From Streptomyces sp. TG1A-60 (GTDB lineage Bacteria; Actinomycetota; Actinomycetes; Streptomycetales; Streptomycetaceae), in the NCBI RefSeq assembly GCF_037201975.1, contig NZ_CP147520.1, positions 7,564,001-7,628,000 of the forward strand: a stretch of 64,000 nt of DNA. Reading direction: 5' to 3'. Under the pieces are notes generated by a model. That model made no database searches. It saw only the letters and a list, made by a program, of their open reading frames with translations, and was not told the DNA's origin. Numbering within the stretch: position 1 is the first letter of the stretch; each line of letters begins with the position of its first letter. Below are positions 37,786-55,115 of the stretch, piece after piece. The position numbers were made by a program, and so were the translations under genes.

Positions 37786-38580
37786 ATGCGTTCTGAAATC
37801 GGCAGCCAGTCCTTTCTCGTATGGAGTTCCAGCGGTGGTTTCACCGCCGAGGGGAATGACCAGGGAATGGTCATAGCCGATTCCTGGCTGGTTCAAGACG
37901 GCCGGATTAGGGGTTACGAAATACACTGGGACCGGTTCTCGAACGCCGTCGGCTCCCATGGCGTCGACCGTGCCGAGATCGCGGAGTTCCGCGCCGCGGT
38001 CACCGCGGAACTGCCGCGGACCGGAGCCTGGTTCCCCCGGGTCGAACTGCTTGCCGGCCCGTCGCCCAGGCTCGCGCTGCGGCTGCGCCCCGCCCCCCAA
38101 CTCCAGGACACCGCCCGGGTCTGGGTCTCGGACTGCGTAGACCCGCGCACCCGTCCCATGTACAAGGGCCCCGACTTCGCCGCCCAGGGCAGGCTCCGCA
38201 AGCAGGCCAGGCTGCACGGCGCCGACGAGGCGATCCTGCTCGACGAGGACGGCCACGCGGTCGAGGGAGCCTTCAGCAGCCTGCTGTGGTGGGACGGCGG
38301 CGACCTGTGCACCGCGCCGGACGACGGCCGGATCCTGCCCGGCGTCACCCGGAGGCTGCTGCTCGACCGAGCCGCCCGCCTCGGGGTGACGGTGCGGCAC
38401 ACGCGGGTCAGCCCCGCCCGCCTCGCGCGGTGTGAGGTGTGGATCACCAGTGCCCTGCACGGCATCCGGGTCGTGACGGGCTGGGAGCCGGGCGGCGAAC
38501 CGGCGCCGCCCGCCCCCTTCGCCGGCGGCCTGTGGCAGGCCCACCTGGACTCGCTCCTGGCGCCGCTGCCCGCGAGGTGA
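37786..38580 (+). CDS. pabC: Class IV aminotransferase fold, probable aminodeoxychorismate lyase
   Basis: A 264-residue fold-type IV PLP protein. The PLP Lys is in MYKGPDF (Lys127), and DEAILLDEDGHAVEGAFSSL near residue 155-172 is the family motif (usual EGATSNLF). Branched-chain aminotransferases are longer; this size fits PabC. Together with the PabAB gene at 47747 it would convert aminodeoxychorismate to p-aminobenzoate and pyruvate. The ATG at 37786 has AGGAGG 10 bases upstream; an ATG at 37729 is less likely. The N-terminus is less GC-rich than the rest, perhaps from transfer or the start of a new transcription unit. D-amino-acid transaminase is an alternative. Confidence 0.8.
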   Translation: MRSEIGSQSFLVWSSSGGFTAEGNDQGMVIADSWLVQDGRIRGYEIHWDRFSNAVGSHGVDRAEIAEFRAAVTAELPRTGAWFPRVELLAGPSPRLALRLRPAPQLQDTARVWVSDCVDPRTRPMYKGPDFAAQGRLRKQARLHGADEAILLDEDGHAVEGAFSSLLWWDGGDLCTAPDDGRILPGVTRRLLLDRAARLGVTVRHTRVSPARLARCEVWITSALHGIRVVTGWEPGGEPAPPAPFAGGLWQAHLDSLLAPLPAR

Positions 38581-38686
38581 GAACCCCCGTGGAGCCGCGG
38601 GGTCCCCCGGCTCGACGCTTCCGCTCCCAGTTCACCGACGAACCGCGCGCCCCCACCAGTTCAGCACAGAGTCAAGGAGAGTCGAG

Positions 38687-40486
38687 ATGAAGATCCGATC
38701 CCTGCAGCGGCATCTGACGTCCGTCCGCCGAATGAAACTGGGCCCTTCGCACCGCGGCCTGCGCGCGCGGCTGGAGCTGGTGTCCGAGCGCTCCCTCGGT
38801 GTGGGGACCTTCCTCTGGCACACCCTCGACCGGGCGGCCGACCTGGACGCCCCGCTGCTTTACCACCTGCCGCGCGGAGGTGGCGAGAAGGACCTCCGTG
38901 CCTACTCCCTGGCGGATCTGCGGGACGCGACCGAGCATTACGCGCGCTGGTTCCACGCCGCCGGAGTGGGACGTGGTGACCGGGTCGGCATCTACAGCGG
39001 CGACGGCATCGCCAACTTCGTCCACTTCATGGCCCTGAACAGCATCGGCGCCATTCCCGCCCCGGTGAATCCGAACATGGCGCCCCAGACCGCGGCGCGC
39101 TATCTGAAGCGACTGGAGCCGCGTGGGGTCGTCGCCGACGCCGACCGGCTGGAGGCCCTGCTGGAGGCCGCCGACAGCCCGGAGGGGTTCGGCTTCACGG
39201 TCGCGCAGGAGGAAGTGGACTCGGCGGGCCGCATGGGCCCGCTGCCCGTCGGCTATCCGTACATGCACGGTGACCACGACCCGGTGCTGATCGCGCACTC
39301 CTCGGGCACCACGGGCATGCCCAAGGCGCCGATCCTCGGTCACCGCCAGTTCTTCGCGGGCAAACGCCCCCGCATCCTCACGATGCCCTCCGGCGTCGAC
39401 GACAAGAACCTGCTGGTGTTCCCGCCGTCCCACGGCTCCGGCCTCAGTTACATGATGATGGCCACCCTGACCGGGGTGCCCACCCTGGTGATGGAGGAAC
39501 AGCGGGGACCGGCGGTGGCCGAGGTCATGCGCTGGTGGAAGCCGACGGTGGTCATCGCCTTCCCCGTCACCTTCGGCGAGTTGGCGGCGCTGGGCGTGGA
39601 GCCGTCGGCTGCCTCACGGGTGACCACCTGGCTCAGCACGGCCGACGCCTCGCACGAGGCCCACGTCCGTGAGCTGGTACGGCTGGGCAGGCATCGCGCG
39701 GGCGGCAAGTGGCGGCAGGGCTCGCGGTACATCGACGGACTCGCCTCGACCGAGGTGGGCATGGCCGTGTTCCAGAACATCCACGGCCCGGACACCGACG
39801 CCTACAAGCGGTGCGTGGGCTACCCGGAGCCCATCGTCGAAGAAGCCACCGTCTACGACGAGCACGGCAAACGGCTGGGCCCGAACGAGATCGGGTTCAT
39901 CGCGGTCAAGACCCCGACCGAGACGCTGGGCTACTGGAACGACCCCGATCTGACGCACCGTTCGAAGCACGACGGCTTCTGGCTCACCGGTGACATCGGG
40001 TACTACGACGAGCAGGGGCGCTTCTACCAGTACGACCGTGCCACCGACGTCATCCACACCGCCCGCGGGCCCGTCTACAGCCTGCCCACGGAAGAGATCC
40101 TCCTGAAGGCCTGCCGCCAGGCCGTGGACTGTGTCGTGGCCGCCGCCATCAGCCCCGCCGACGAGGAGCTGTCCGAACCGGTCGCCGTGGTCCGGCTGGC
40201 CGAGCGCTGCGAACTGACCTCGCGGGAAGTGCTGACGCAGCTCAACGGGGCGCTGCGCAAGGCCGGCATGCACGAGGTCTCCGCGGTCGTGCTGGTCAAG
40301 GGCGAGAACGACATCCCGCTCGGCGTGACCGGCAAGGTGCTCAAGCGCGAGGTGCGCACGACCTACGAGAAGGTGCTCCTCTCCGACGACGACCACGGGC
40401 TCGACATCGCCCGCACCCGTTCGGCGCGCACCGCGCCGAGCAGCCTGGGACCGACCTCCCGGCGCCGACAGGCCAAGTCCGCCTGA
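38687..40486 (+). CDS. Acyl-CoA synthetase / acyl-AMP ligase (ANL superfamily)
   Basis: A 599-residue ANL enzyme. Motifs are HSSGTTGMPKAPILGHRQF near residue 205, DGLASTEVGMAVFQN near 350, WLTGDIGYYDEQGRFYQYDR near 430 and the C-terminal PLGVTGKVLKREVR with the catalytic Lys. The segment DVIHTARGPVYSLPTEE replaces the usual KSGGENV. It activates a carboxylate as AMP ester, then as thioester or similar. Beginning basic residues (MKIRSLQRHLTSVRRM) are not conserved. AAGGAGA precedes the ATG. A GC-rich hairpin follows. An aromatic acid such as p-aminobenzoate is a reasonable substrate from context only. Confidence 0.88.
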   Translation: MKIRSLQRHLTSVRRMKLGPSHRGLRARLELVSERSLGVGTFLWHTLDRAADLDAPLLYHLPRGGGEKDLRAYSLADLRDATEHYARWFHAAGVGRGDRVGIYSGDGIANFVHFMALNSIGAIPAPVNPNMAPQTAARYLKRLEPRGVVADADRLEALLEAADSPEGFGFTVAQEEVDSAGRMGPLPVGYPYMHGDHDPVLIAHSSGTTGMPKAPILGHRQFFAGKRPRILTMPSGVDDKNLLVFPPSHGSGLSYMMMATLTGVPTLVMEEQRGPAVAEVMRWWKPTVVIAFPVTFGELAALGVEPSAASRVTTWLSTADASHEAHVRELVRLGRHRAGGKWRQGSRYIDGLASTEVGMAVFQNIHGPDTDAYKRCVGYPEPIVEEATVYDEHGKRLGPNEIGFIAVKTPTETLGYWNDPDLTHRSKHDGFWLTGDIGYYDEQGRFYQYDRATDVIHTARGPVYSLPTEEILLKACRQAVDCVVAAAISPADEELSEPVAVVRLAERCELTSREVLTQLNGALRKAGMHEVSAVVLVKGENDIPLGVTGKVLKREVRTTYEKVLLSDDDHGLDIARTRSARTAPSSLGPTSRRRQAKSA

Positions 40487-40500
40487 CCGTCCCGCCGCCT

Positions 40501-40541
40501 CCGCGGACGTCCCGGCGCACACCCGTCCGGGACGTCCGCGG
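40501..40541. terminator. Hairpin after acyl ligase gene
   Basis: A perfect 15-bp inverted repeat (40501-40515 with 40527-40541) with an 11-base loop, 14 bases after the ligase stop. It may cause partial termination between the ligase and DsbA-like genes. Confidence 0.6.
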
Positions 40542-40593
40542 GGCGGGGGCGGGACCGGGTGGGTACCAGCACGTGAGAAGGAGCTCCTGACAC

Positions 40594-41283
40594 ATGATCA
40601 GCGTTCTGCCGGGCACCGTGGCGGTCTACGCGGACCTCGCCTGCCCCTGGGCGCACGTCGCCGTCCAGCGGCTGTGGCGCATCCGCGCCGAGCTGGACCT
40701 GGCCGAGGCCGTACGGTTCGACCACCGCGCCGTCCTGCTGGAGGTGGTCAACCGGGGCACACTGCCCAAGCCGATCATCGACGCCGAGATCCCGGTCGCG
40801 GCGGAGATGGAGCCCGACGCGGGGTGGCGGCCCTGGGCGGAGCCCGACTGGCGCTGGCCGGTGAGCAGGCTGCTCGCGGCGGAGGCGGTGCAGGCGGCCA
40901 AGGAACAGGGTCTGGCGGCGAGCGAAGCCCTCGACCGGGCGCTGCGCAGGGCGTTCTTCGCCGACAGTGCCTGCATCACGATGCGTCATGTGGTGCTCGA
41001 CGTCGCCGGGTCGGTGCCCGAGGTGGACGCCGGGGCCCTGGGCGAAGCGCTGGACGCCGGTCGCGCGCGTACCGCCACACTCGCCCACGTCGCCGACTTC
41101 GCCCCCGGCGGCGCGACCACGAGCCCGCACCTCTTCACTCCGGACGGCGGCTCCTGGCCCAACCCCGGGGTCGACTATCACTGGGCGGGCCCACCCGGCG
41201 ACAGTGCCGTCGCCCTGAAGTCCGACGACCCCTCGATCTACCGCCAGATCCTGACGAGAGCGGCGGAACCCGCCCAAGGATGA
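40594..41283 (+). CDS. DsbA-family (FrnE-like) thioredoxin-fold protein
   Basis: A 229-residue thioredoxin-fold protein. Near the N-terminus it has VYADLACPWAHVAVQRL, the place of the FrnE/HCCA-isomerase CPWC motif, but the second Cys is Ala, so only one Cys remains. TSPHLFTPDGG near residue 178 is the cis-Pro loop. FrnE relatives include DsbA-like oxidoreductases and glutathione-dependent 2-hydroxychromene-2-carboxylate isomerases; single-Cys members favour a thiol-dependent isomerase or transferase role over disulfide exchange. No signal peptide. GAAGGAG precedes the ATG. Confidence 0.8.
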   Translation: MISVLPGTVAVYADLACPWAHVAVQRLWRIRAELDLAEAVRFDHRAVLLEVVNRGTLPKPIIDAEIPVAAEMEPDAGWRPWAEPDWRWPVSRLLAAEAVQAAKEQGLAASEALDRALRRAFFADSACITMRHVVLDVAGSVPEVDAGALGEALDAGRARTATLAHVADFAPGGATTSPHLFTPDGGSWPNPGVDYHWAGPPGDSAVALKSDDPSIYRQILTRAAEPAQG

Positions 41284-41595
41284 GCGCGGTCACGACACCG
41301 CCACGGCTGCGGCTCGACGCGGTCGGCCGGCGGGCGTCGTGCACGGGGGCGCCGACCGGCCGGCGTCACGTACGGGCGGCGTCGGCCGGCGCCGCACCGG
41401 GCCGGTGCGAAATCGCTCCGCTTGCTCTGCCGCCGGTGTGTTCCGCCACCCGGCTCGATGCGTCGCCCGGCTCGCTCCACTGCCCCAAGTCCCTCCCTCG
41501 CCCAGCCCGTTTCGTCGTTCTGGTCCGCCCGTCCTTCTCTCGTGCGCCGCTCTCTCTCGCGGCGTGGCATGTCCGATTGCTTCAGGAGGTTGTTG
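41284..41595. other. Spacer before narK
   Basis: About 310 bases with no convincing gene; short frames lack motifs and ribosome sites. The end is pyrimidine-rich (CTCTCTCTC near 41550) before AGGAGGT at 41584. A narK promoter may lie here. Confidence 0.45.
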
Positions 41596-42972
41596 ATGAG
41601 CGCCGTGGTGAAGAGCGGCTCGCGCGGAATTCGGTACTGGGATCCGGAGGACGAGAAGTTCTGGCGGCGTACGGGGCGGCGGGTCGCGATGCGGAATCTG
41701 GCGTTCTCGATCCTCGCCGAGCACGTCGGGTTCTCCGTCTGGAGCCTGTGGTCCGTGCTGGTGCTGTTCCTGGGGCCGGAGTACGGGCTGTCCCCGGCGG
41801 ACAAGTTCCTGCTCGTCTCCACGCCGACGCTGGTCGGAGCCGTACTGCGGATTCCGTACACGCTTGCGGTGGGATGGTTCGGCGGACGTACCTGGACCGT
41901 CCTCAGCGCGGCTGTGCTGCTGGTACCCACACTGCTGGCTGCGGTGTACCTGCACCCCGGCACCTCGCTGGGCACGCTGCTGCTGGTGTCCGCCGTGGCC
42001 GGTCTCGGTGGCGGCAACTTCGCCTCGTCCATGGCGAACATCAACGCCTTCTTCCCGCAGCGCCACAAGGGCTGGGCGCTCGGCCTGAACGCGGGCGGCG
42101 GCAATCTGGGCGTCGCCGTGACACAGTTGGCCGCCCTCGCGGTGCTGGGCACGGTGGGCGCGGCCGAACCCCGGCTGCTGCTGGGGGTCTTCGTCCCGGC
42201 GATCGTCGTCGCCGCTGTGTGCGCCGCGCTCTTCATGGACGACCTGCCCGACAACCGCAACGACACCGACGCCCTCGGGGACGTCCTGCGGGACGCCCAC
42301 TGCTGGGTGATGTCCCTGCTCTACCTCGGCACGTTCGGTTCGTTCATCGGCTACTGCTTCGCGTTCGGCCTGGTGCTGCAGACGCAGTTCGACCGTACGC
42401 CGCTCCAGGCCGCGTCGTTCACGTTCCTCGGGCCGCTGCTCGGCTCGCTGACCAGGCCGGGCGGCGGCTGGCTGGCCGACCGGATCGGCGGTGCCAGGGT
42501 CACCTTCGCCGTGTTCGTGGCGCTGATGCTCTGCACCGGAGTCGCCGTCGTGGCGTCGCGCACGGACTCGCTCGGTCTGTTCGTCGCCGACTTCATCGTG
42601 CTCCTCGCACTGGCCGGGGCGGGCAACGGATCGACGTACAAGATGATCCCGGCGATCTTCCGGGCGAAGGCGCTCCAGGGCGGTGGAGGCGACGAGGGCG
42701 GCGCGAGCACGCAGGCCCGACTGTCGCGGGCCCGACGGCTGTCGGGCGCGCTCATCGGGGTCACCGGCGCCCTCGGCGCGCTCGGAGGTGTCCTCATCAA
42801 CCTGGCGTTCCGCGCGTCCTTCGCCGGCTGGGGCAGCGGGATCCCGGCGTTCACCGGATTCCTGGTCTTCTACGCCGCCTGCGCCGTGGTCACCTGGGCG
42901 GTCTACCTCCGGCGCCGCCCCCGCCCACGGACCGCCCACGATTCCCGTCCCGACGTCGTCCTCTCGGTCTGA
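41596..42972 (+). CDS. narK: Nitrate/nitrite transporter, NarK family
   Basis: A 458-residue MFS protein with 12 predicted helices. The nitrate signature is present twice in form: GGGNFASSMANINAFFPQRH KGWALGLNAGGGNLG near residue 135-170, and ALAGAGNGSTYKMIPAIF near 345, which are the diagnostic glycine-rich motifs of NarK/NasA transporters. It moves nitrate in or exchanges nitrate and nitrite. AGGAGGT at 41584-41590 precedes the ATG. A loop of about 25 residues rich in Gly/Ser/Arg before helix 11 is longer than usual. Its place inside a p-aminobenzoate-type cluster, with a nitrate reductase downstream, is unusual. Confidence 0.92.
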   Translation: MSAVVKSGSRGIRYWDPEDEKFWRRTGRRVAMRNLAFSILAEHVGFSVWSLWSVLVLFLGPEYGLSPADKFLLVSTPTLVGAVLRIPYTLAVGWFGGRTWTVLSAAVLLVPTLLAAVYLHPGTSLGTLLLVSAVAGLGGGNFASSMANINAFFPQRHKGWALGLNAGGGNLGVAVTQLAALAVLGTVGAAEPRLLLGVFVPAIVVAAVCAALFMDDLPDNRNDTDALGDVLRDAHCWVMSLLYLGTFGSFIGYCFAFGLVLQTQFDRTPLQAASFTFLGPLLGSLTRPGGGWLADRIGGARVTFAVFVALMLCTGVAVVASRTDSLGLFVADFIVLLALAGAGNGSTYKMIPAIFRAKALQGGGGDEGGASTQARLSRARRLSGALIGVTGALGALGGVLINLAFRASFAGWGSGIPAFTGFLVFYAACAVVTWAVYLRRRPRPRTAHDSRPDVVLSV

Positions 42973-43017: not shown

Positions 43018-44112
43018 ATGGCAGTCGCCTCCGACCCCGTCCTCACCTTTCCCCTGGACCAGGTCCCCGATCCGGAGGAGTTCATCCAGGCCGCCATGCG
43101 GTGGCACTTCAGCCCCGAGACGGGCTCGCCGTACTGGCTCCGGAGGGCGCGGACCCTGGACTTCGACCCGCGTCGGGACGTCCGCACCTTCGACGACCTC
43201 CAACTGTTCCCCAACATCGTCAACGAACTGCGCGACGTGCCCGCCCGGGACCTCGTCCCCCGGGGTTACGGCTCGTCGACCGAGGTGATCGGCGTCTACG
43301 AGAGCGGCGGCACGACCGGCGCCCCCAAGCGGGTCGCCTACCTCGCCGACTGGATGGACCGGTACGTGACCTGGTCCACCCGGCGGATGGACGAACGCGG
43401 TCACCCCCACGGCGCCCACTGGCTGGCCATGATCCCCAGCGGCCCCCATCTGTGGGGTGAGGTCGTGGCCCGGCAGGCGCGGCGACGGGGCGGCTTCACC
43501 TCCACCATCGACCTCGATCCGCGCTGGGTGAAGAAATGCATCGCCGAGGGGCGCGGCGACGAGGCCGGCCGCTATGTCGAGCACCTCCTGGCGCAGGGCG
43601 AGTTCCTGCTGGAGACCCAGGACATCGGCGTACTGGTCATCACGCCCCCGCTGCTGGAGCGGCTCGCGCAGCACGAACACCTCGTCAAGCTGGTGAACGA
43701 GAAGGTCCAGGTCATCATCTGGAGCGGGGCCCACATGGACGCCGACAGCCGGCACCTGTTCCGGACCGAGGTCTTCCCCGACGTCCAGCTGTTCGGGAAC
43801 TACGGCAGCACCATGATCCTCTGCGGGGCCGTCGAGCGCGCCGGCAGCGAGGACGAGTGCGTCTTCGATCCCTTCGCGCCCCACATCTCATTCTCGGTCG
43901 TCGACCCCGAGACGGGGCAGCCGGTTCCCTACGGCGCACGTGGCCAAGTCGTCATGAACCACATCAGCCGCAGCGCCCTGCTCCCCAACAACCTGGAACG
44001 CGACGTCGCCACCCGGATCCGCCCCGGGGCCGGCCAACTCGGCGACTCGGTGGCCGATGTCAGCCCCGTCCAGACCTTCGACGACGAGGTCGTCATCGAA
44101 GGGGTCTACTGA
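43018..44112 (+). CDS. Short adenylating protein, LuxE/phenylacetate-CoA-ligase-like
   Basis: A 364-residue ANL-type N-terminal domain only. VYESGGTTGAPKRVAYLADW near residue 95 is the AMP-binding P-loop equivalent, FGNYGSTMILCGAVE near 260 replaces the usual YGxTE motif, and the C-terminal swivelling domain of full ligases is missing. The length and gene position directly before a LuxC-type reductase match LuxE acyl-protein synthetase, which activates a carboxylate and passes it to the reductase. Stop and next start overlap (TGATG). Assignment rests on this pairing; phenazine- or coumarate-related PaaK-like ligases are alternatives. Confidence 0.75.
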   Translation: MAVASDPVLTFPLDQVPDPEEFIQAAMRWHFSPETGSPYWLRRARTLDFDPRRDVRTFDDLQLFPNIVNELRDVPARDLVPRGYGSSTEVIGVYESGGTTGAPKRVAYLADWMDRYVTWSTRRMDERGHPHGAHWLAMIPSGPHLWGEVVARQARRRGGFTSTIDLDPRWVKKCIAEGRGDEAGRYVEHLLAQGEFLLETQDIGVLVITPPLLERLAQHEHLVKLVNEKVQVIIWSGAHMDADSRHLFRTEVFPDVQLFGNYGSTMILCGAVERAGSEDECVFDPFAPHISFSVVDPETGQPVPYGARGQVVMNHISRSALLPNNLERDVATRIRPGAGQLGDSVADVSPVQTFDDEVVIEGVY

Positions 44113-45521
44113 TGGGCGGCCTGACGGGCGGACCGATGGACGCACCGGCGGGCTGTCCGATCCAGCTCGACGCCCTCGGCCCACGCGGTGCCTTCCGGGC
44201 GCGGAACCGGCTGACCGTGGCCGATGTCACCGGGCGGCCGGTCGCCGAACTCAGTCAGGTCCCACGGCTGTTCGTCCAGCGCGGCCTGTCCGCGCTGCGC
44301 GCCGCCCGCCCGGCGGGCTCCGGTGAACTGGCCGAGGTCATCGCCCGAGCGGGGTACGCGTTCGCGAACGGCACGGTGGGCGGCCTGTCGGCCCCGGACT
44401 ACCAGCGCCTCGTGAGCCGGGTCTCCGGTGTGCCGGTCGCGGTGGTGAGGTCCGCCACCGCCCGGATCGAGCGCGCGGCGGCCGAGGTGGACCGCACCGT
44501 GCGATGCGCCCGCCCCACAGCGACGGTCGACCACTGGCGGGACCCGCTGACTCGGGGCGGCGGCGCGGTCTGGGCCCGGCGAGGTGACGTCTTCGCTGTG
44601 CACGCCGCCGGCAACCACCCCGGCGTGCACAGCCTGTGGCTCGAAGCGCTGGCGCTGGGGTACCGGGTCGCGGTACGGCCCTCCGGTCGGGAGCCCTTCA
44701 CCCCGCACCGGCTGGTGACGGCGTTGCGCGAGGCGGGGATCGGCGACGACCGGCTCCTGCTGCTGCCCACCGACCACCAGGTGGCCGACGACGTCGTCCG
44801 GGGCGCCGACCGGTCCCTCGTGTACGGCGGCGACGCGGTGGTGGAGAAGTACCGGGCGCATCCGAGCGTACTGACTCAGGGCCCCGGGCGGTCCAAGATC
44901 CTGCTGGCGGACGTGGACACGGGCCTGTCGTCCGCGCTCGACACGATGGTCGCCTCGATCCGGGACGAGGGCGGAGTCGCCTGCGTCAACGCCACCGCCG
45001 TCTTCGTGGCCGGCGACCCGGCGCCGGTTGCCGAGGCCATCGCCGAGCGGCTGGCCGGGCTGCCCAGCCTGCCGCCGGAGCACGACAAGGCGGTCCTCCC
45101 CGTCCAGCCAACCGCCGACGCGCGCAGGCTGGAGAAGTACCTGCTCGGCCACGCGGACGGCGCGACCCTGCGGCTGGGCGGCGACGGGATCGTCGACGAA
45201 CTGGGCGACGGCAGCGCCGTACTGCGCCCCGCCGTGATCCAGTTGGACCGGCCGGACGCGCCGCAGCTCGGCACCGAACTCCCCTTCCCCTGTGTCTGGG
45301 TGGCCCCCTGGTCACCGGAGGACGGCGTGGGACCGCTGCGGAACACCCTGGTGCTCACCGTGATCGGCCGGGACGAACAGCTCGTCGAGCGGCTGGTCGA
45401 CGAACCGAGCATCAGCAACGTCCATGTCGGTGACCACCCCACGCACTGGATGGCGCCGGGCGTCCCGCACGACGGCTATCTCGCGGAGTTCCTCATGCGC
45501 TCCAAGGCGGTCATCAGGTGA
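44112..45521 (+). CDS. Acyl reductase, LuxC / aldehyde dehydrogenase superfamily
   Basis: A 469-residue member of the LuxC group. The N-terminal 120 residues are LuxC-specific; the cofactor half has FAVHAAGNHPGVHSLWLEAL near residue 160 and RPSGREPFTPHRL near 190, and the catalytic Cys lies in DEGGVACVNATAVFV near 295. LuxC reduces an activated acyl group (acyl-CoA or acyl-enzyme) with NADPH to the aldehyde. Paired with the adenylating protein just upstream it should convert a carboxylic acid, plausibly an aminobenzoate-type acid, to an aldehyde. Coupled on both sides (TGATG, GTGA). Confidence 0.82.
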   Translation: MGGLTGGPMDAPAGCPIQLDALGPRGAFRARNRLTVADVTGRPVAELSQVPRLFVQRGLSALRAARPAGSGELAEVIARAGYAFANGTVGGLSAPDYQRLVSRVSGVPVAVVRSATARIERAAAEVDRTVRCARPTATVDHWRDPLTRGGGAVWARRGDVFAVHAAGNHPGVHSLWLEALALGYRVAVRPSGREPFTPHRLVTALREAGIGDDRLLLLPTDHQVADDVVRGADRSLVYGGDAVVEKYRAHPSVLTQGPGRSKILLADVDTGLSSALDTMVASIRDEGGVACVNATAVFVAGDPAPVAEAIAERLAGLPSLPPEHDKAVLPVQPTADARRLEKYLLGHADGATLRLGGDGIVDELGDGSAVLRPAVIQLDRPDAPQLGTELPFPCVWVAPWSPEDGVGPLRNTLVLTVIGRDEQLVERLVDEPSISNVHVGDHPTHWMAPGVPHDGYLAEFLMRSKAVIR

Positions 45522-46251: not shown

Positions 46252-47673
46252 ATGCCCGTTCCGCCTCTGCTCGAACCGGTCGGCCCGGCCGACCACGCCC
46301 CCGACACCCAGGAAAGTGAGGAGTTCGAGGCAGGTCTCAGTACGCCGTCCTGGCACCCGCCGGCCTGGCGAGGACTGCCGATACGCCAGCAGCCGCAGTG
46401 GCCGGATCCCGACGAGGTGGCCGCCGTCACCGACCGTCTCGCCCTGCTGCCGGCCCTCACCACGCCCAGCGACGTCCGCAGCGTTCTCGCGGCCCTGGCC
46501 CGGGTGCAGAACCGGGAGGCGTTCGTGCTCCAGGCCGGCGACTGCGCCGAGCCGCTCGGCCCGGCGGCCGTCACCGGTGCCCGGGACAAGCACCGGGTGC
46601 TGGGCGCCGTGGCGGAACGCGTCAGCACACGCCTGGACCTGCCCGTGGTCACCGTCGGCCGACTGGCAGGGCAGTTCGCCAAGCCCCGCTCCGCGGCCGT
46701 CGAGGAGGTGGCCGGTCGACAGCTGCCGGTGTTCCGGGGGCTCACGGTCAACGGGACGGAGCCGCACGAGGACGACCGCAGGCCCGACCCGTACCGGATG
46801 CTGTCCGGCTACTACACGGCGAGGAACGTCCTGCATGAACTTGCCACCCTCGCGCATGAGACGGCGAGTTCGTTCGCCCCGCAGGCCTGGGATCCCGTGG
46901 CCGCCCGTGAGGTGCTGTGGAACCGGCGCGAGGAAGCCGCCCCCGACGGCTCACTGCGCTCACTCGTCCAGGGATACGGGCAGACCCGCTGGACCGAAGA
47001 CGGGGGCTGGCGCCACACCGGGCTGTGGACCAGCCACGAGGCGCTGCTCCTGGACTACGAGAGCCCGCTGATCCGCCAGGATCCCGTCACCGGTGAATGG
47101 TATCTGCTGTCCACGCACCTGCCGTGGATCGGCGACCGCACCCGGCACATCGGCGACGCCCATGTGGAGTTCCTGGCGGGCATCGCCAATCCGGTCGCCG
47201 TCAAGATCGGCCCCGGCGCGGAGCCTGCCGAGATCGTGCGCCTGTGCGGGCGGCTCGATCCGTACCGCAGGCCGGGCCGGCTCACCCTGATCTGCCGGTT
47301 CGGCGCCCGCGAGCTGCGCGGACGGCTCCCGGCTGTCGTCACCGCCGTACGCCGGGCGGGCCACCCCGTGGTCTGGATGTCGGACCCCATGCACGGCAAC
47401 ACCACGGTGACCGGCACCGGCGTCAAGACCCGCCACCTCAAGGACATGCTGGACGAGGTCACGGACTTCTTCGACGTCCTGCGCGGCATCGGCGAGTGGC
47501 CCGGCGGGGTGCATCTGGAGGCTGCCGCCGCCGATGTGACCGAGTGCGTGGGCGGTACCCGGGTGACCTGCGAATCCGATCTGGGCGACGCCTACGAGTC
47601 GTTGTGCGACCCCCGGCTCAACAACGAGCAGCTCATGGCCATGGCGGACATGGTCGCCAAGCTCGCCGTGTGA
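46252..47673 (+). CDS. 3-deoxy-D-arabino-heptulosonate 7-phosphate synthase, class II
   Basis: A 473-residue class II (plant-type) DAHP synthase. Motifs are FVLQAGDCAEPLGP near residue 90, GRLAGQFAKPRS near 138, LLDYESPLIR near 265, and WMSDPMHGNTTVT with GGVHLEAA near 380-420, supplying the metal and phosphoenolpyruvate ligands. It condenses PEP and erythrose 4-phosphate, the first shikimate step. A dedicated copy inside a biosynthetic cluster usually raises chorismate supply, here for the PabAB enzyme next to it. GGAG at 46241-46244 precedes the ATG; the upstream frame to 46048 is not conserved. Confidence 0.93.
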   Translation: MPVPPLLEPVGPADHAPDTQESEEFEAGLSTPSWHPPAWRGLPIRQQPQWPDPDEVAAVTDRLALLPALTTPSDVRSVLAALARVQNREAFVLQAGDCAEPLGPAAVTGARDKHRVLGAVAERVSTRLDLPVVTVGRLAGQFAKPRSAAVEEVAGRQLPVFRGLTVNGTEPHEDDRRPDPYRMLSGYYTARNVLHELATLAHETASSFAPQAWDPVAAREVLWNRREEAAPDGSLRSLVQGYGQTRWTEDGGWRHTGLWTSHEALLLDYESPLIRQDPVTGEWYLLSTHLPWIGDRTRHIGDAHVEFLAGIANPVAVKIGPGAEPAEIVRLCGRLDPYRRPGRLTLICRFGARELRGRLPAVVTAVRRAGHPVVWMSDPMHGNTTVTGTGVKTRHLKDMLDEVTDFFDVLRGIGEWPGGVHLEAAAADVTECVGGTRVTCESDLGDAYESLCDPRLNNEQLMAMADMVAKLAV

Positions 47674-47746: not shown

Positions 47747-49930
47747 ATGCGAACCCTGCTCGTCGACAACTACGACTCGTACACCTACAACCTCTTCCAG
47801 CTGATCGCGCAGGTGAACGGGGTCGAGCCCGTGGTCCTGCACAACGACTCACCGGACTGCGCGAAGCTCGACCTGAACGGCTTCGACAACGTGGTGATCT
47901 CTCCCGGGCCGGGCGATCCCACCCGGCCGAAGGACTTCGGCGCCTGCGCGCCGATCGTCGAATCCGCCCGCCTGCCCGTGCTCGGCGTGTGTCTGGGCCA
48001 CCAGGGCATCGCCGCCGGGTCGGGCGCGGAGATCGTACGGGCGCCCGCGGCCAGGCACGGGCACCTCACCGCCGTGCGCCACGACGGTCGGGAGCTCTTC
48101 CACGGCCTTCCGCAGGACTTCACCGCCGTGCGCTACCACTCGCTGTGCGTGCGGGAGCCGCTGCCACCGGAGCTGGAGGCGACCGCGTGGGCGGAGGACG
48201 GAGTGCTGATGGGCCTTCGGCACCGTACGCGCCCGCTGTGGGGCGTGCAGTTCCACCCCGAGTCCGTCGCCACGGAGTTCGGGTACGAGCTGCTCGGCAA
48301 CTTCCGCGACCTCACGGAGCGGTTCCACCAGGAGCGCGGTTCCTCGCGCCGCCGGGCGCCGGTCCGCTCCGGGGCCCACCTGTTACCCGCGGAGACCGGC
48401 TCGCAGCCCGTACCCCGGCCCGTCGAGCCACGCCCCTACCGCCTGCACTCCCGGATCATGGAGTCCGCCGTCGAGACCGAGGCCGCCTTCACCCGGCTCT
48501 TCGCCGACTCCTCGCACGCCTTCTGGCTCGACAGCTCCCTGATCGACCCGCGGCTGTCCCGCTTCTCCTTCCTCGGCGACGCGTCCGGTCCGCTCTCCGA
48601 AATCGTCCGCTACCGCGTCGGCGACGGCGCCGTCGAGGTCACGGCGGCGGGCGGGGAGACCCAACGGGTCGACGGCAACGTCTTCGACTACCTGCAGACA
48701 GCGCTGCGGGCCCGCCGCGTCGAGAACCCCGCCCTGCCCGTCGACTTCTCCTGCGGCTACGTCGGCTACTTCGGCTACGAGCTGAAGGCCGACTGTGGTG
48801 GCACCGCGAAGCACACCTCGCCCACCCCGGACGCGATCTGGATCTTCGCCGACAGGCTGATTGCGGTCGACCACCAGCAGGGCGCCACCTATCTGCTGGC
48901 CCTCAGCGACGGCAGCCCGCGCTCCGACCGCGACGCGACGGTGTGGCTGGAGAAGACCGCCGCCGTGCTCGCCGCGCTGCCCCGCCCCCGGCCGACCCCC
49001 GTACCCGACCAGCAGGCCGTCGACAACACGCTGCTGGAAACGGCGCTCGTGCGCGACCGCGCCCAGTACCTCGCCGACATAGACGCCTGCAAACAGGAAT
49101 TGCTCGCCGGGGAGAGCTACGAGATCTGCCTGACCAACGCCGTCCAGGCCGCCCGCCCCGCCGACGGGCTGCGCTTCTACCAGGCCCTCAGGCGCTCCAA
49201 CCCCGCCCCGTACGCCGCCTATCTGCGCCTGGACGGGATGGAGATCGCCTGCTCCTCCCCGGAGCGGTTCCTGCGCATCACCCGCGACGGCATGGTCGAG
49301 ACCAAGCCCATCAAGGGCACCGCCCGGCGCGGCGCGGACGAGGCGGAGGACGCGAGGTTGCGCCGGGAACTGACAACGAGCGCCAAGGTCCGGGCGGAGA
49401 ACCTCATGATCGTCGACCTGCTCCGCAACGATCTCGGCCGTGTGTGCGAGGTCGGCAGCGTCACCGTTCCCCGGCTGATGCGCACGGAGACCTACGCCAC
49501 CGTGCACCAGCTCGTGTCCACCATCCGCGGCCGGCTCCGCGCCGAGGTGGACGCCCTGGACTGCGTACGTGCCTGCTTCCCCGGCGGCTCGATGACGGGT
49601 GCGCCGAAACTGCGGACGCTGGACATCATCGACTCCCTGGAGACCCGGGCACGCGGCGTCTACTCGGGTGCCATCGGCTTCCTCTCCTGCAACGGCACGG
49701 CCGATCTGAACATCGTCATCCGGACCGCCGTACTGGCGGAGGAGGGTCTGCACGCCGGCGCCGGTGGCGCCATCGTGCTCGACTCCGATCTCGTCGAGGA
49801 GTACGAGGAGATGCTGCTGAAAGCGGCCACACCGCTGCGGGTGCTGCTCGCGGGCACGTCCGGCCAGGACGCCGCGCCCACGACCGACCGCGTGGTACCG
49901 AAGCGGGCTGCGGAGAGCGGGCTCCGATGA
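47747..49930 (+). CDS. pabAB: Aminodeoxychorismate synthase, fused PabA-PabB
   Basis: A 727-residue fusion. Residues 1-200 are a class I glutamine amidotransferase with Cys82 in GVCLGHQG and His/Glu in GVQFHPESVATE. After a linker, residues about 235-715 are the chorismate-using domain. PIKGTARRG near residue 522 is decisive: the Lys forms the PabB intermediate, whereas TrpE and PhzE have PIAGT. FPGGSMTGAPK and IVIRTAVL are further motifs. Product is 4-amino-4-deoxychorismate, which the pabC-like enzyme would cleave to p-aminobenzoate. AAGGAG precedes the ATG. The stop overlaps the nitrate reductase start (ATGA, 49927-49930). Confidence 0.94.
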   Translation: MRTLLVDNYDSYTYNLFQLIAQVNGVEPVVLHNDSPDCAKLDLNGFDNVVISPGPGDPTRPKDFGACAPIVESARLPVLGVCLGHQGIAAGSGAEIVRAPAARHGHLTAVRHDGRELFHGLPQDFTAVRYHSLCVREPLPPELEATAWAEDGVLMGLRHRTRPLWGVQFHPESVATEFGYELLGNFRDLTERFHQERGSSRRRAPVRSGAHLLPAETGSQPVPRPVEPRPYRLHSRIMESAVETEAAFTRLFADSSHAFWLDSSLIDPRLSRFSFLGDASGPLSEIVRYRVGDGAVEVTAAGGETQRVDGNVFDYLQTALRARRVENPALPVDFSCGYVGYFGYELKADCGGTAKHTSPTPDAIWIFADRLIAVDHQQGATYLLALSDGSPRSDRDATVWLEKTAAVLAALPRPRPTPVPDQQAVDNTLLETALVRDRAQYLADIDACKQELLAGESYEICLTNAVQAARPADGLRFYQALRRSNPAPYAAYLRLDGMEIACSSPERFLRITRDGMVETKPIKGTARRGADEAEDARLRRELTTSAKVRAENLMIVDLLRNDLGRVCEVGSVTVPRLMRTETYATVHQLVSTIRGRLRAEVDALDCVRACFPGGSMTGAPKLRTLDIIDSLETRARGVYSGAIGFLSCNGTADLNIVIRTAVLAEEGLHAGAGGAIVLDSDLVEEYEEMLLKAATPLRVLLAGTSGQDAAPTTDRVVPKRAAESGLR

Positions 49931-52077
49931 GCGAGCCGGCCGGCGACGTCCGTACGCACTGCCCGTACTGCGCCCTGCAGTGCGGGATGGCGCTGCGGCC
50001 CGACCAGGGCGGGGCGGCGCCTCTCGCGGTCGTCGGGTGGCCGGAGTTCCCGGTCAGCCAGGGGGCGCTGTGCGGCAAGGGGCAGAACGCCATCGACCTG
50101 CTGGGCCCGGTGGCCCGGCTCGGTACACCGCTGGTCCGCGACGGTCGGGGCGCGGCGCTGCGGCCCGCCACCTGGGACGAGGCGCTTCAGCGTGTGGTCT
50201 CGGGCATCCGGTCGGCGCAGACCGCGTACGGCCGGGACGCCGTCGGGGTGTTCGGCGGTGGCGGGCTGACCAATGAGAAGGCGTATCTGCTGGGCAAGTT
50301 CGCCCGGGTCGCGCTCCGTACGTCGGCGATCGACTACAACGGCCGTTTCTGCATGTCGTCGGCGGCGGCCGCCGTCAACCGGGCCTTCGGCCTCGACCGG
50401 GGGCTGCCGTTCCCGCTCGCCGACGTCGCCGGGACCGACTGCGTCCTGCTGGTCGGAAGCAACCCGGCCGACACGATGCCGCCCGCCCTGCGCTACCTCA
50501 CCCGACTGGCCGACCGCGGTGGGCGGTTGATCGTGGTGGACCCGCGCCGCACCCGCACCGCCGCGCGGGCCGACCTGCACGTGCGCCCCGTGCCCGGCAC
50601 CGACCTGGCCCTGGCCCTCGGCATGCTGCACATCGCCCTCGCCGAGGGCCATGTCGACGAGGACTTCGTCGCCGCCCGGACCACGGGATTCGAGGCCGTG
50701 CGCGCCACCGCGATGGAGTACTGGCCCGCCCGGGTCGAGGGGCTGACCGGTGTGCCCGCCCATCAGATACGCGAAGCCGTACGGATGTTCGCCCAGGCGC
50801 CCACCGGAATGGTGCTCACGGCCCGAGGCAGCGAACAGCACAGCAAGGGCACCGACACCGTGCACGGCTGGATCAACCTCTGTCTGGCCCTGGGGAAGGC
50901 GGGCCGGCCGTACAGCGGATACGGCTGCCTGACCGGTCAGGGCAACGGGCAGGGCGGACGCGAGCACGGGCAGAAGGCCGACCAGCTGCCCGGCTACCGC
51001 AGCCTGACCGACCCGGCGGCGCGGGAACACATCGCCCGCCTCTGGGGCGTCACCCCCGGGGAACTGCCCGGCCCCGGCACCTCGGCCTACGAGATGCTCG
51101 ACACCGCGGGCACGCCCGACGGCGTCCGGGCCATGCTGGTTCTCGGCTCCAACCCGGTCGTGTCGGCGCCGCACGCGGACCACGTGGAGCGGCGGCTGCG
51201 AGCGCTGGACCTGCTGGTGGTCGTGGACGTCGTACGGTCCGAGACGGCCGAACTCGCCGATGTCGTCCTGCCGTCGGCCCAGTGGGCGGAGGAGACCGGC
51301 ACCCTGACCAATCTGGAGGGCAGGGTGATCCTGCGCCGCAAGGCCGTCGAGCCGCCCGCCCAGGTGCGCACCGATCTGGAGATCCTGTCCGCCCTCGCGG
51401 CCCGGCTGGGCCGTACCGAGGGCTTCCCAGCCGATCCGCGCCTGGTCTTCGACGAGCTGCGGGCCGCGTCGGCCGGCGGCCGGGCCGACTACGCGGGGAT
51501 CAGCTACGAACGGATCAGCGAGGAGAACGGGGTGTTCTGGCCGTGCCCGGCGGACGGACACCCCGGGACGCCCCGACTGTTCCTGGAGTCCTTCGCGACG
51601 CCCGACGGCCGGGCCCGCATGGTGCCGGTCCACCACCGACCGGCGGCCGAGACCACCGACGAGCGGTATCCGCTGTACCTGGTCACCGGGCGGGTGCTGG
51701 CCCAGTACCAGAGCGGCGCGCAGACCCGTCGGGTGGCCGCGTCACGGGCCGCCGCGCCGGAGCCGTACGTCGAGATCCACCCCTCCACGGCCGGTCGCCT
51801 CGGCGTGGTGGACGGCGAGCCGGTGACGGTGACCAGCAGGCGGGGGACGGCTGTCGCCCCGGCCAGGCTGAGCACGGACATCCGCCCGGACGTGGTGTTC
51901 ATGCCCTTCCACTGGTTCGGGCCGGGACGGGCCAACACGGTCACCAACCCCGCGCTCGACCCGGTCTCGCGCATGCCCGAGTTCAAGGTGTGCGCCGTAC
52001 GCGTGGCACCGGTGGCCGCGCTCCGTTCCCGCCCGCCGGGGCGGCCGTGTGCGGCGACCGCCGTACAAGCCCTGTGA
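49927..52077 (+). CDS. Assimilatory-type nitrate reductase catalytic subunit (NasA/NasC-like)
   Basis: A 716-residue molybdopterin oxidoreductase. The N-terminal [4Fe-4S] ligands are CPYCALQC (Cys12, 15, 19) and Cys49 in GALCGKGQ. The molybdopterin domains follow: GGGGLTNEKAYLLGKFARVA near residue 110, YNGRFCMSSAAAAVNRAFG near 138, GYGCLTGQGNGQGGREHGQK near 338, and the C-terminal cap with NTVTNPALDPVSRMPEFK. Cytoplasmic, with no Tat signal, like NasC/NarB. It reduces nitrate to nitrite. The ATG overlaps the pabAB stop, so nitrate reduction and p-aminobenzoate synthesis are translationally linked. The last 25 residues are non-conserved. Confidence 0.9.
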   Translation: MSEPAGDVRTHCPYCALQCGMALRPDQGGAAPLAVVGWPEFPVSQGALCGKGQNAIDLLGPVARLGTPLVRDGRGAALRPATWDEALQRVVSGIRSAQTAYGRDAVGVFGGGGLTNEKAYLLGKFARVALRTSAIDYNGRFCMSSAAAAVNRAFGLDRGLPFPLADVAGTDCVLLVGSNPADTMPPALRYLTRLADRGGRLIVVDPRRTRTAARADLHVRPVPGTDLALALGMLHIALAEGHVDEDFVAARTTGFEAVRATAMEYWPARVEGLTGVPAHQIREAVRMFAQAPTGMVLTARGSEQHSKGTDTVHGWINLCLALGKAGRPYSGYGCLTGQGNGQGGREHGQKADQLPGYRSLTDPAAREHIARLWGVTPGELPGPGTSAYEMLDTAGTPDGVRAMLVLGSNPVVSAPHADHVERRLRALDLLVVVDVVRSETAELADVVLPSAQWAEETGTLTNLEGRVILRRKAVEPPAQVRTDLEILSALAARLGRTEGFPADPRLVFDELRAASAGGRADYAGISYERISEENGVFWPCPADGHPGTPRLFLESFATPDGRARMVPVHHRPAAETTDERYPLYLVTGRVLAQYQSGAQTRRVAASRAAAPEPYVEIHPSTAGRLGVVDGEPVTVTSRRGTAVAPARLSTDIRPDVVFMPFHWFGPGRANTVTNPALDPVSRMPEFKVCAVRVAPVAALRSRPPGRPCAATAVQAL

Positions 52078-52104
52078 TCGGTCGATCGGTCCCTGGAGGT
52101 ACCC

Positions 52105-53586
52105 GTGGGAAGAGAAGACGGCGCCGCGCGCCGCGTTCTCGTGGTCGGCTGCGGTATGGCGGGAGCGCGTTTCGTCCGCCGGCTGACGGCCTTGAATCCC
52201 GACGTCCGGATCGTCGTCTTCGACGGCGAACACCGCCCCGCCTACAACCGCCCGCTCCTGACCGGCGTCCTGGCCGGTCACCACCGCCCTGAGGACATCG
52301 CCCTGCCGCTGCCGCCCGGCATCGACCTGCGGGCCGGCGTCCGCGTCGTCGCCGTGCGCCGGGCCACCCGCACGGTCATCGACTCCACCGGCACCGAGCA
52401 CGCCTACGACGCACTGGTCCTGGCGACCGGCAGCCGCGCCCACCACCCCTGGCCACAGACACACCCGGCCTCGGGCGAACACCACCTCCACACCCTCGCC
52501 GACTGCCGACACCTGACCGCCGACTGTGCCGACGCCCGCACCCCCGCGGTCATCGGCGGCGGTCTCCTGGGCGTGGAAACCGCCCTCGCCCTCGCCGCCC
52601 GCACCCTCCCGGTGACCCTCATCCACCGGGGCCCCCACCTGCTCCACCGCCACCTGGACACGAGGGCCGGAGCCCTGCTCCGCAGCGTCCTGGCGGACGC
52701 GGGCATCACGGCAAGGACGGGAACGCCCGCGTTGGGCCTGGTCGACGGTCACGGGGGCGGGGCCCGGGCGGCAGCGGCTCGGGCCGGAGGCCCGCGGGAT
52801 GCCGGGGTGTCCGCGCCGGGTTCGGCAGGTGGTTCGCGAAGCGAGGCACCTGCGGCAGCGGCTCATGCCGTTTCATCCGCAGGCCCTGGGGCGGCCCCGG
52901 ACGGGCCAACCGGGTTGCCCGGGCGTGCTGATGAGTCTGCGTCGGGTTTGGCCGGAGGGCCCGGGGACGCTGAGGTGCCGGGGTCTGCCGGGCGTCACGA
53001 GGGCCGTGGGGTGCTGCTCGGAGACGGGGACGTGGTCGGCGCCGATCTTGTCGTGGTCGCGTGCGGTACGAGGCCGCGGGTCGGGCTCGCGCGGGCGGCG
53101 GGGCTCCTGGTGAAGGCGGGAGTAGTGGTCGATGACACGTTGGCCAGTGTCGGCGATCCGGAGGTGTACGCCATCGGGGACTGTGCGGAGCATCGCGGGG
53201 TCGTGCACGACACGGCCGTGTCGGCCTGGCAGCAGGCCGAGGTGCTCGCGGCAAGGCTGTCCGGGCACGATCGGCACGCGCGGTTCACGGAGGCCCGCAC
53301 GCTCACCCGGCTCATCGCGGGGGAGGTCGACCTGGCGGTGTTCGGCGAGGCCACCACCGGTGTCGGGAGTGGCGTCCGGGGCGGGGCCAGGACCGATGTG
53401 CTCTCTGTCTCGGACGACCGGCGGCGCGTCTACAAAAAGATCGTCACCCGTGACGACCGCGTGGTGGGCGGCATCCTGCTCGGCGACCTGTCCACCGTCG
53501 ACACGGTGCGCCGGGCCTACGAGGCGACCGAACCGCTGCCACCGGACCGCCTCCACCTGGTCTCGGCACTCGGAGGGGACGGATGA
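52105..53586 (+). CDS. FAD/NAD(P)-dependent oxidoreductase with Gly/Ala-rich insert
   Basis: A 493-residue pyridine nucleotide-disulfide-type flavoprotein, related to the N-terminal half of NirB/NasB. The FAD motif is VVGCGMAGARFVRRL at residues 12-26, YNRPLLTGVLAG near 48, VIGGGLLGVETALALA near 149 (NAD), and VYAIGDCAEHRG near 350. Residues about 213-300 are a Gly/Ala/Ser/Pro-rich stretch inserted in the NAD domain, not part of the family. It probably carries electrons from NAD(P)H to the nitrate reductase. GGAGGT precedes the GTG at 52105. It overlaps the following flavoprotein gene (ATGA). Confidence 0.85.
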   Translation: MGREDGAARRVLVVGCGMAGARFVRRLTALNPDVRIVVFDGEHRPAYNRPLLTGVLAGHHRPEDIALPLPPGIDLRAGVRVVAVRRATRTVIDSTGTEHAYDALVLATGSRAHHPWPQTHPASGEHHLHTLADCRHLTADCADARTPAVIGGGLLGVETALALAARTLPVTLIHRGPHLLHRHLDTRAGALLRSVLADAGITARTGTPALGLVDGHGGGARAAAARAGGPRDAGVSAPGSAGGSRSEAPAAAAHAVSSAGPGAAPDGPTGLPGRADESASGLAGGPGDAEVPGSAGRHEGRGVLLGDGDVVGADLVVVACGTRPRVGLARAAGLLVKAGVVVDDTLASVGDPEVYAIGDCAEHRGVVHDTAVSAWQQAEVLAARLSGHDRHARFTEARTLTRLIAGEVDLAVFGEATTGVGSGVRGGARTDVLSVSDDRRRVYKKIVTRDDRVVGGILLGDLSTVDTVRRAYEATEPLPPDRLHLVSALGGDG

Positions 53587-55115
53587 GCGGCCGCCTGGTC
53601 CTGGTCGGCTACGGAATGGTCGGCCACGCCCTGCTGACGGCCTTGGACGCCCGGGGCGCGCTGCGGGACTGGCAGGTCACGGTGGTCGCCGAGGAGGACG
53701 TACCGCCCTACGACCGCATCCACCTGTCCCGGTACTTCCAGGAGTCCGAGCCGGAGGGCCGGCTGTTCCGACGGACCGGACCGGCGGGCCTGCTCCTCGG
53801 CGAGCCCGGCTTCGGCGACCGTACGGGCATCCGGGCCCGCCTCGGGGACCCGGCCGTTGCGGTCGACCGTCGGCGCCGCCGGGTGACCACGGCCGCCGGC
53901 CGCGTCATCGACTACGACGTCCTGGCCCTCGCCACCGGCGCGCGCTCCTTCGTCCCGCCCGTACCCGGAGCCGACGCCACCGGCTGCTTCGCCTACCGGA
54001 CGGCCCAGGACGTACGGGCCATCCGGGCGCACTGCGAAGCGGGCGGTGCGGGCGGTGCGGGCGCGGGCGTGGGCGCGGTGATCGGCGGCGGGCTGCTGGG
54101 CCTGGAGGCTGCGGGCGCGCTACGGGCCCTCGGGCTGACGATCCATGTCGTCGAATTCTCCCCCTGGCTGATGCCACGTCAGCTGGATGAGTACGGAGGC
54201 TGGACGCTGCGCCGCCACATCGAGGACCTGGACATCGTCGTACACACGGGCACCCGCCTCACCGCCGTCGAGACCGACGCGCGCCACCGGGCCACCGGCG
54301 TGCGGCTCCAGCCGCCCGACGGCGCGCAGCCCGTCCACGTCGGCGCCGACGTGGTCGTGTTCGCAGCGGGGGTACGCCCCCGCGACGAACTCGCCCGGTC
54401 CTGCGGGATCGCCGTGGGGGAGCGGGGCGGCATCGTCGTCGACGAGACCTGCCGCACGGAGGACGAGCACGTCTACGCGATCGGGGACTGCGCACTCACC
54501 CCCGACGGACGCACGCACGGACTGCTGGCCCCGGGCAACGCCATGGCCCAGGTGGTCGCCGACCGACTGGCCGGCGGCACGGAGACCTTCACCGGCTGGG
54601 ACACAGCGACCCGGCTGAAGCTGCTCGGCGTGGTGGTCGCCTGCTTCGGCGACCAGCCGGAGGCGGCGCCTGGCGCATTCGAGGCGACCCACCTCGACAC
54701 CCGGGCCGGGGTGTACCGCAGCCTGCGCGTCTCGGGCGAGGGGGGGCTGCTCGGCGGGATGTTCGTGGGGGACACGTCCGGCTACGCGGCGCTGCGCCCC
54801 CTCGTGAGCAGCGGTCGGCCGCTGCCCGCCCCCGTCGAGGAGCTCGTCGTGCCCGGACCGCTGCCGGGGCGGACGACGGCCGTCGGACCACTGCCGGACG
54901 AGACGACGATCTGCCACTGCCACAACGTCCCGGCGGGCACGGTCCGCTCCGCCGTCCGGGGCGGCTGCGCCGACCTGGCGGCGGTACGGCACCGCACCCG
55001 CGCCGGCAGCGGGTGCGGTAGCTGCGCGGAGACCGTGGCCGCACTGCTCGACGAAGGGCTCTCCGCCCCCGGCATCGGCACGGCCGCGACAACGGTGACA
55101 GGGAGCCCCGTATGA
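53583..55115 (+). CDS. NirB/NasB-like flavoprotein with C-terminal BFD-type [2Fe-2S] domain
   Basis: A 510-residue protein. Residues about 1-400 are an FAD/NAD(P)H oxidoreductase like the front of NirB (LVGYGMVGHALL, PPYDRIHLSRYF, VIGGGLLGLEAAGALRALG, VYAIGDCALTPDGR). Residues about 437-490 are a bacterioferritin-associated-ferredoxin-like domain with CHCHN and GSGCGSC cysteines. The sirohaem half of true NirB is absent, so it cannot reduce nitrite by itself; it resembles NasB, the electron-transfer partner of assimilatory nitrate reductase. ATGA overlap with the preceding flavoprotein and with a short frame at 55112. Confidence 0.87.
   Translation: MSGRLVLVGYGMVGHALLTALDARGALRDWQVTVVAEEDVPPYDRIHLSRYFQESEPEGRLFRRTGPAGLLLGEPGFGDRTGIRARLGDPAVAVDRRRRRVTTAAGRVIDYDVLALATGARSFVPPVPGADATGCFAYRTAQDVRAIRAHCEAGGAGGAGAGVGAVIGGGLLGLEAAGALRALGLTIHVVEFSPWLMPRQLDEYGGWTLRRHIEDLDIVVHTGTRLTAVETDARHRATGVRLQPPDGAQPVHVGADVVVFAAGVRPRDELARSCGIAVGERGGIVVDETCRTEDEHVYAIGDCALTPDGRTHGLLAPGNAMAQVVADRLAGGTETFTGWDTATRLKLLGVVVACFGDQPEAAPGAFEATHLDTRAGVYRSLRVSGEGGLLGGMFVGDTSGYAALRPLVSSGRPLPAPVEELVVPGPLPGRTTAVGPLPDETTICHCHNVPAGTVRSAVRGGCADLAAVRHRTRAGSGCGSCAETVAALLDEGLSAPGIGTAATTVTGSPV

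Follow-up and report, generated by a model that had tools for sequence, protein, structure and literature searches.

A Streptomyces gene cluster combining a diazotase-family enzyme, p-aminobenzoate synthesis genes and an embedded nitrate reductase

A stretch of 64,000 nucleotides of high-GC DNA from Streptomyces sp. TG1A-60 (NZ_CP147520.1, 7,564,001-7,628,000, within a 7.83-Mb single-contig genome), hereafter the window, carries a cluster of 12 plus-strand genes with open frames that spans positions 37786-55115. Judging from the families encoded and their conservation, the core of this cluster probably serves to make p-aminobenzoate (PABA), to reduce its carboxylate and to diazotise with nitrite derived from nitrate.

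Genes of the cluster and its diazotase-family enzyme

The proteins of the window were scored against Pfam and NCBIfam profiles, which gave the following gene set:

37786..38580, + strand: PabC-like class IV aminotransferase/lyase (aminodeoxychorismate lyase type); PF01063 (Aminotran_4), 103.9 bits
38687..40486, + strand: diazotase-family (ANL) AMP-binding enzyme, predicted to activate nitrite with ATP; profile, structure and tree
40594..41283, + strand: DsbA-like thioredoxin-fold protein, single-Cys CPWA motif; PF01323, 23.0 bits, under the cut-off of 25.6
41422..42972, + strand: NarK-family nitrate/nitrite transporter; TIGR00886, 295.1 bits, cut-off 311.7
43018..44112, + strand: LuxE-like acyl-adenylating enzyme; PF00501, 35.4 bits, adjoins LuxC
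44112..45521, + strand: LuxC-like acyl reductase, aldehyde dehydrogenase (ALDH) fold; PF00171, 39 bits
45518..46168, + strand: AzoR-type FMN-dependent NADH azoreductase/quinone reductase homolog; PF02525, 127.1 bits, and PDB azoreductases
46252..47673, + strand: class II DAHP synthase (DAHPS), start estimated; PF01474, 487.6 bits
47747..49930, + strand: fused aminodeoxychorismate synthase PabAB; GATase and chorismate-binding domains
49927..52077, + strand: NasC-type assimilatory nitrate reductase; PF00384, PF04879, PF01568
52105..53586, + strand: NirB-N-terminal-like FAD/NAD flavoprotein Fp1; TIGR02374, 230.7 bits, without the siroheme part
53583..55115, + strand: NirB-N-terminal-like flavoprotein Fp2 with a BFD [2Fe-2S] domain; TIGR02374, 419.2 bits, and PF04324
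55405..~56860, - strand: MocR/GabR-type regulator, start estimated; GntR and aminotransferase domains

The DAHP synthase, PabAB, PabC-like, LuxE/LuxC-like, NarK, nitrate reductase, flavoprotein and AzoR genes named in a first-pass annotation of this DNA were all recovered as open plus-strand frames with profile matches, while the DsbA-like gene and the MocR-type regulator had been missing from its list. The regulator lies outside 37786-55115 and is the 13th gene of the set, because it is kept both in loci with a nitrate reductase (nitrate-type) and in loci with CreE and CreD, the nitrite-forming enzymes of the aspartate-nitrosuccinate route (CreE-type), as described below. Overlapping genes are LuxE/LuxC (TGATG), LuxC/AzoR, PabAB/NasC (ATGA) and Fp1/Fp2. 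As in LuxC/LuxE-type systems, an acyl-adenylating enzyme adjoins an ALDH-fold reductase with a conserved cysteine, Cys291 of LuxC, which sits in an ACVN motif that is invariant in 5/5 orthologs.

How far the remaining assignments reach varies by protein. PabAB passes TIGR00553 (356.2 bits versus a cut-off of 328.4) and scores 430 bits against TIGR01823 (cut-off 442.55); the PabC-like protein is under all NCBIfam PabC cut-offs (48.2 versus 273 for the best lyase model), and its profile scores support the class IV fold only. The NasC-type protein carries molybdopterin, Fe4S4 and dinucleotide-binding domains and misses the NF047855 cut-off (821.1 bits versus 1100), the AzoR-type protein scores 74.4 bits against NF010075 (cut-off 188), and the match of Fp2 to TIGR02374 covers profile positions 1-468 of 794. 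The true start of NarK is probably near 41560, as ortholog alignments begin at residues 44-50 (genomes G248, G139 and G296). Fold matches of the DsbA-like protein are FrnE, kappa GST and HCCA isomerase; neither sequence nor fold comparison gave it a specific function.

The product of 38687-40486 had been taken for a CoA ligase, an assignment set aside here in view of its family score, structure and place in a tree. Its best structural matches are CmaA6 and, second, Tri17, and its structure is overall nearer to these two than to CoA ligases. In a quick tree, supported by SH-aLRT only and carrying long-branch warnings, the enzyme groups with the diazotases and apart from the CoA-ligase-type rows (support 98), the tree giving no order within the group. 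D350, G351, L352, E356 and G358 are invariant in a 31-row alignment, and the diazotase motif pattern was found in 12/16 proteins. Taken together, these comparisons place the predicted product in the diazotase family. Diazotase relatives were also seen in other settings: P0055 is a 994-residue protein with an amine-oxidase domain fused to a diazotase-like AMP-binding domain, and locus L053 (genome G107) holds PabAB (52%), a CoA ligase, an amine oxidase, a diazotase relative (41%) and a type I polyketide synthase (PKS) in one stretch.

Conservation in Streptomyces and exchange of the nitrite module

In a search of 392 genomes of the genus, own genome included, close diazotase orthologs (80-97%) were found in four genomes besides our own; G108, G296 and G248 carry all 12 genes in identical order, and G139 carries 11 genes, from the diazotase to Fp2, at 59-80% identity on a contig that begins just before the diazotase. 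Sampling a further 394 genomes from the class and 394 from the family brought up no additional close ortholog. In a LuxC scan using one genome per species, the set was present in five of the best 80 loci (of 135 relatives). All 12 genes are found in three species, S. caniscabiei, S. dysideae and S. scabiei; contig ends truncate the locus in S. torulosus, which retains PabC to PabAB, and in S. ossamyceticus. Counting once S. caniscabiei, S. scabiei and S. ossamyceticus, which were already in the genus sample, the nitrate-type set occurs in seven genomes in total. No LuxC relative was found in viral contigs.

The claim that these genes form one unit rather than chance neighbours is borne out by this conserved order. 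The ATGA overlap of pabAB and the nitrate reductase gene is real and is kept in all five genomes (own, G108, G296, G248 and G139), and the MocR-type regulator is kept in 4/4 (G108, G296, G248 and G139; 93-64%). A recent rearrangement that joined nas and pab genes had been proposed as a reason to doubt the operon; the junction is instead kept down to 59-80% protein identity, and the six cluster NasC proteins form one clade (support 100/99) apart from four housekeeping NasC. The housekeeping NasC of TG1A-60 lies at 5688813-5690885 and is 68% identical to the cluster copy, and its NirB lies elsewhere in the genome (5676309-5678723). No siroheme part of NirB (TIGR02374) was found in the window, and there is no nitrite reductase beside the cluster NasC. 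Nitrite could thus build up, since the cluster lacks a nitrite reductase, and a predicted dedicated nitrate reductase in this setting fits a role for nitrite as a reagent.

The strongest evidence for this reading comes from Micromonosporaceae, the family of Dactylosporangium, in which 6/354 genomes carry diazotase orthologs of 61-65% identity, with PabC directly upstream in 6/6 loci. Five CreE-type loci (G1123, G1253, G1256, G1200 and G1393) were compared; G1352 was left out of this count because its contig, on which PabC and the diazotase are present, is 24.7 kb, and G1358 (44%) was also left out. These gene sets span about 14-33 kb and share with the window AzoR (40-50%), LuxE (40-42%), LuxC (37-38%), DAHPS (48-52%), PabAB (64-65%), PabC (52-56%), the diazotase (62-66%) and, in 5/5, the MocR-type regulator (48-51%). 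PabAB proteins of both cluster types form a clade relative to two other PabAB (support 98). NasC, NarK, Fp1 and Fp2 have no match at E<=1e-3 in the five loci; CreE instead directly follows DAHPS-PabAB in 5/5, with CreD next in 4/5. Conversely, neither the window nor the nitrate-type loci contain a match to CreE or CreD at E<=1e-3. Because CreE/CreD follow PabAB and neither locus type holds the other's module, CreE-CreD occupies the slot held in Streptomyces by NasC-Fp1-Fp2. CreD was assigned in G1123 by its best PDB match, CreD itself (5xny, 422 bits versus 232 for the next). The CreE label rests on a single PDB match, 8cp2 (436 bits), which we take to be FzmM, and on the position beside CreD. 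Among 12 more distant diazotase relatives, six had CreE together with CreD in the part of the locus that was retrieved, and NasC occurs elsewhere in 4/5 CreE-type genomes.

One CreE-type locus, that of G1256, was scanned for other genes (10), and these include sulfotransferase, sulfate-activation, arylamine N-acetyltransferase and ABC transporter genes. Positions 6683-7306 of this locus (L185) encode a DsbA-like protein that matches the Rv2466c mycothiol-dependent nitroreductase family with 233.5 bits and is perhaps the counterpart of the DsbA-like gene in the window.

Other combinations of these modules were seen. In a second gene-set family, seen in S. katrae and Streptomyces sp. TBY4 (L099, 14084-21375; L090), genes for CreE, CreD, NarK, NasC and one flavoprotein adjoin one another close to LuxE-LuxC, and thus the nitrate reductase may have joined nitrite-using clusters more than once. 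In G108, NasC and CreD lie ~2 kb apart at both chromosome ends (C1:97844-103288, with a copy near 11.22 Mb). Loci L105, L112 and L148 hold DAHPS, LuxE-LuxC and CreE/CreD together, L148 also with DhbA-like, anthranilate/ADIC-synthase-like, arylamine acetyltransferase-like, 3-hydroxybenzoate hydroxylase-like and ANL genes. L080 of S. lincolnensis L4, which carries LuxE-LuxC, MaoC-like dehydratases, ketosynthase/chain-length-factor (KS/CLF)-like proteins, a ketoreductase, PabC (44%) and PabAB (57%), resembles a cluster for a reducing type II PKS primed with PABA, and lacks a diazotase.

Directly upstream of the cluster in the window (26390-37011) are meta-cleavage catabolic genes of the 3-carboxyethylcatechol type (MhpB model 504.5 versus a cut-off of 291) and a metabolite/H+ symporter gene. 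This set and the transporter also lie beside the cluster in G108, G296 and G248, as do MhpE and the transporter in S. dysideae and the transporter only in S. torulosus; the genes at ~26.4-37.0 kb were considered as part of the pathway and, given their catabolic look, left out of the cluster, to which they may nonetheless belong. IS110-type and other transposase genes are present on both flanks (24014-25309 and 57228-59644).

Proposed pathway and its alternatives

From the gene content, conservation, family placement and exchange of nitrite modules observed here, we infer each reaction, which of carboxylate reduction and diazotisation comes first, what AzoR and the DsbA-like protein do, and what is finally made. 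The DAHP synthase would boost chorismate supply, from which PabAB and PabC would form PABA, and LuxE (with ATP) and LuxC (with NADPH) would turn the carboxylate into an aldehyde, in the simplest case 4-aminobenzaldehyde. NarK would import nitrate, which NasC with Fp1 and Fp2 would reduce to nitrite; the ANL diazotase would use ATP to activate this nitrite, whose transfer to the aryl amine would yield an aryl diazonium, and AzoR and the DsbA-like protein may process or contain this reactive group, with the MocR-type regulator predicted to control the set. Dedicated PABA synthesis and nitrite supply from nitrate, both suggested in the first-pass annotation, are supported by gene content, and of its proposal for carboxylate activation and reduction the LuxE/LuxC part stands and the CoA ligase falls, a LuxE-like protein being able to activate a carboxylate. 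Its suggestion that the two branches meet in diazotisation is now stronger, because the cluster has a diazotase-family gene and CreE/CreD stand in place of the nitrate reductase in related loci.

Candidate products include azo, triazene, N-nitroso, hydrazine, free diazonium and denitrified compounds. Agaricus mushrooms contain PABA-derived hydrazine and diazonium compounds, and we tentatively propose a bacterial counterpart, in which the embedded nitrate reductase feeds diazotisation of the PABA amine, an aspartate route does so in other genera, and the end product is 4-formyl- or 4-(hydroxymethyl)-benzenediazonium or a reduced hydrazine; this full scheme is possible, with the balance tilted against it.

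Several observations weigh against the proposed pathway. The diazotase scores far below the cut-off of the AvaA6 model NF058622 (3-aminoavenalumate diazotase; 369.8 versus 975) and is not filed as an AvaA6 equivalog; it falls outside the clade of characterised enzymes in the tree sample, and the exact diazotase motif is absent from P0004, P0005, P0008 and P0010, which are members of its own clade from the Micromonosporaceae side or related. Between the two cluster types, LuxE and LuxC share only 37-42% identity and do not group as sisters. The distance between the LuxC proteins is such that an exchange may have affected the carboxylate reductase as well; sequences for the LuxC tree were picked by likeness to the window LuxC, and therefore this tree cannot date the recruitment. 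The DsbA-like protein has no match at E<=1e-3 in the CreE-type loci, and G1393 has CreE and no CreD at E<=1e-60 genome-wide. Finally, a CreD-like gene lies elsewhere in all five nitrate-type genomes examined, and therefore aspartate-derived nitrite could be supplied in trans, although some of these genes (51%) may be a catabolic relative.

This last observation also favours the idea that the nitrate reductase module represents another gene set for nitrate assimilation, a second one, which came to lie in the operon by chance, with pathway nitrite drawn from CreE/CreD elsewhere or from the medium. We consider this quite improbable, as the translational overlap of PabAB and NasC is kept in 5/5 genomes, the cluster NasC proteins form a clade of their own with no nitrite reductase beside them, and the module's slot is identical to that of CreE/CreD in the other type. 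A different fate for the diazonium group is also conceivable, in which it is transient and hydride takes its place, as happens in the biosynthesis of avenalumic and p-coumaric acid, to leave a product without an N-N bond. The nearest curated family is indeed AvaA6, whose pathway drops the diazo group through AvaA7 (PMC10777205), and AzoR is a reductase that could serve here; yet Pfam and NCBIfam scans found no AvaA7 family gene in the cluster, and the AvaA7 of this genome sits in a separate ava cluster, so that such a deamination seems unlikely. Lastly, the ANL enzyme might act like Tri17, which is among its best structural matches and is reported to be promiscuous (PMC11705231), joining nitrite to some nitrogen other than a primary aryl amine, such as a hydrazine or hydrazone, to give a triazene or azide. 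We give this very little credence, as none of the 12 genes was recognised as hydrazine-forming, and diazotisation is the simplest fate for the primary aryl amine that the cluster provides.

Comparison with known nitrite-using systems

Diazotase clusters supplied with nitrite by CreE/CreD are well described (PMC11705231, PMC10777205); a search of the open-access literature found no described pathway with an embedded nitrate reductase. As reported by Kawai et al., 72/134 ava-related clusters (about half) are without avaE and avaD (PMC10777205), and that paper names three possibilities for such clusters, another route to nitrite among them. Diazotisation with nitrate-derived nitrite, as proposed here, would make this operon a direct case of nitrate reduced by an embedded enzyme, bearing both on these clusters and on the debate over alanosine. 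Because nearly the same pathway comes with one nitrite source or the other, the two locus types amount to a natural swap experiment. The cluster would link the supply of inorganic nitrogen with the chemistry of natural products. It also points to diazonium, azo or hydrazine compounds derived from PABA, which may have escaped notice owing to the reactivity of these groups.

The ava and cma clusters (AvaA6 and CmaA6; avenalumic and p-coumaric acid) share with this one the diazotase family, an aminobenzoate-derived amine and nitrite as reagent, and are described as using 3-amino-4-hydroxybenzoate, a type II PKS, CreE/CreD-type nitrite where present, and AvaA7. The present cluster has PABA, LuxE/LuxC and a nitrate reductase instead. 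For the carboxylate, grixazone GriC/GriD is reportedly a two-protein reductase resembling LuxC/LuxE, likened here by description, which acts on an aminobenzoate, 3-amino-4-hydroxybenzoate, unlike the PABA here. A true ava-type cluster, with AvaA6 and AvaA7 over their cut-offs, lies in the same genome (6374001-6393900; L155) adjoining GAPDH, PGK, TIM and glucose-6-phosphate isomerase genes; no CreE/CreD was seen in that stretch, and a CreD is at 3605801-3607150.

The spinamycin spi cluster (SpiA7) resembles the present proposal in that an aniline without a stabilising hydroxyl is diazotised (PMC11705231); it differs in making an aryl polyene with a fused SpiED nitrite enzyme, and the likeness to SpiA7 is by description. 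Tri17 of triacsin biosynthesis, like the present diazotase by structure, depends on ATP and nitrite (PMC11705231), but acts on a hydrazone with nitrite from aspartate. The CreE-type Micromonosporaceae loci, for which no description was found in the literature compared here, share AzoR, LuxE, LuxC, DAHPS, PabAB, PabC, diazotase and MocR with the Streptomyces cluster and have CreE/CreD for NarK/NasC/Fp1/Fp2. For alanosine clusters, nitrate/nitrite reductases have been proposed as the nitrite source and are described, in the account compared here, as non-dedicated, whereas the nitrate reductase of the present cluster lies in the operon.

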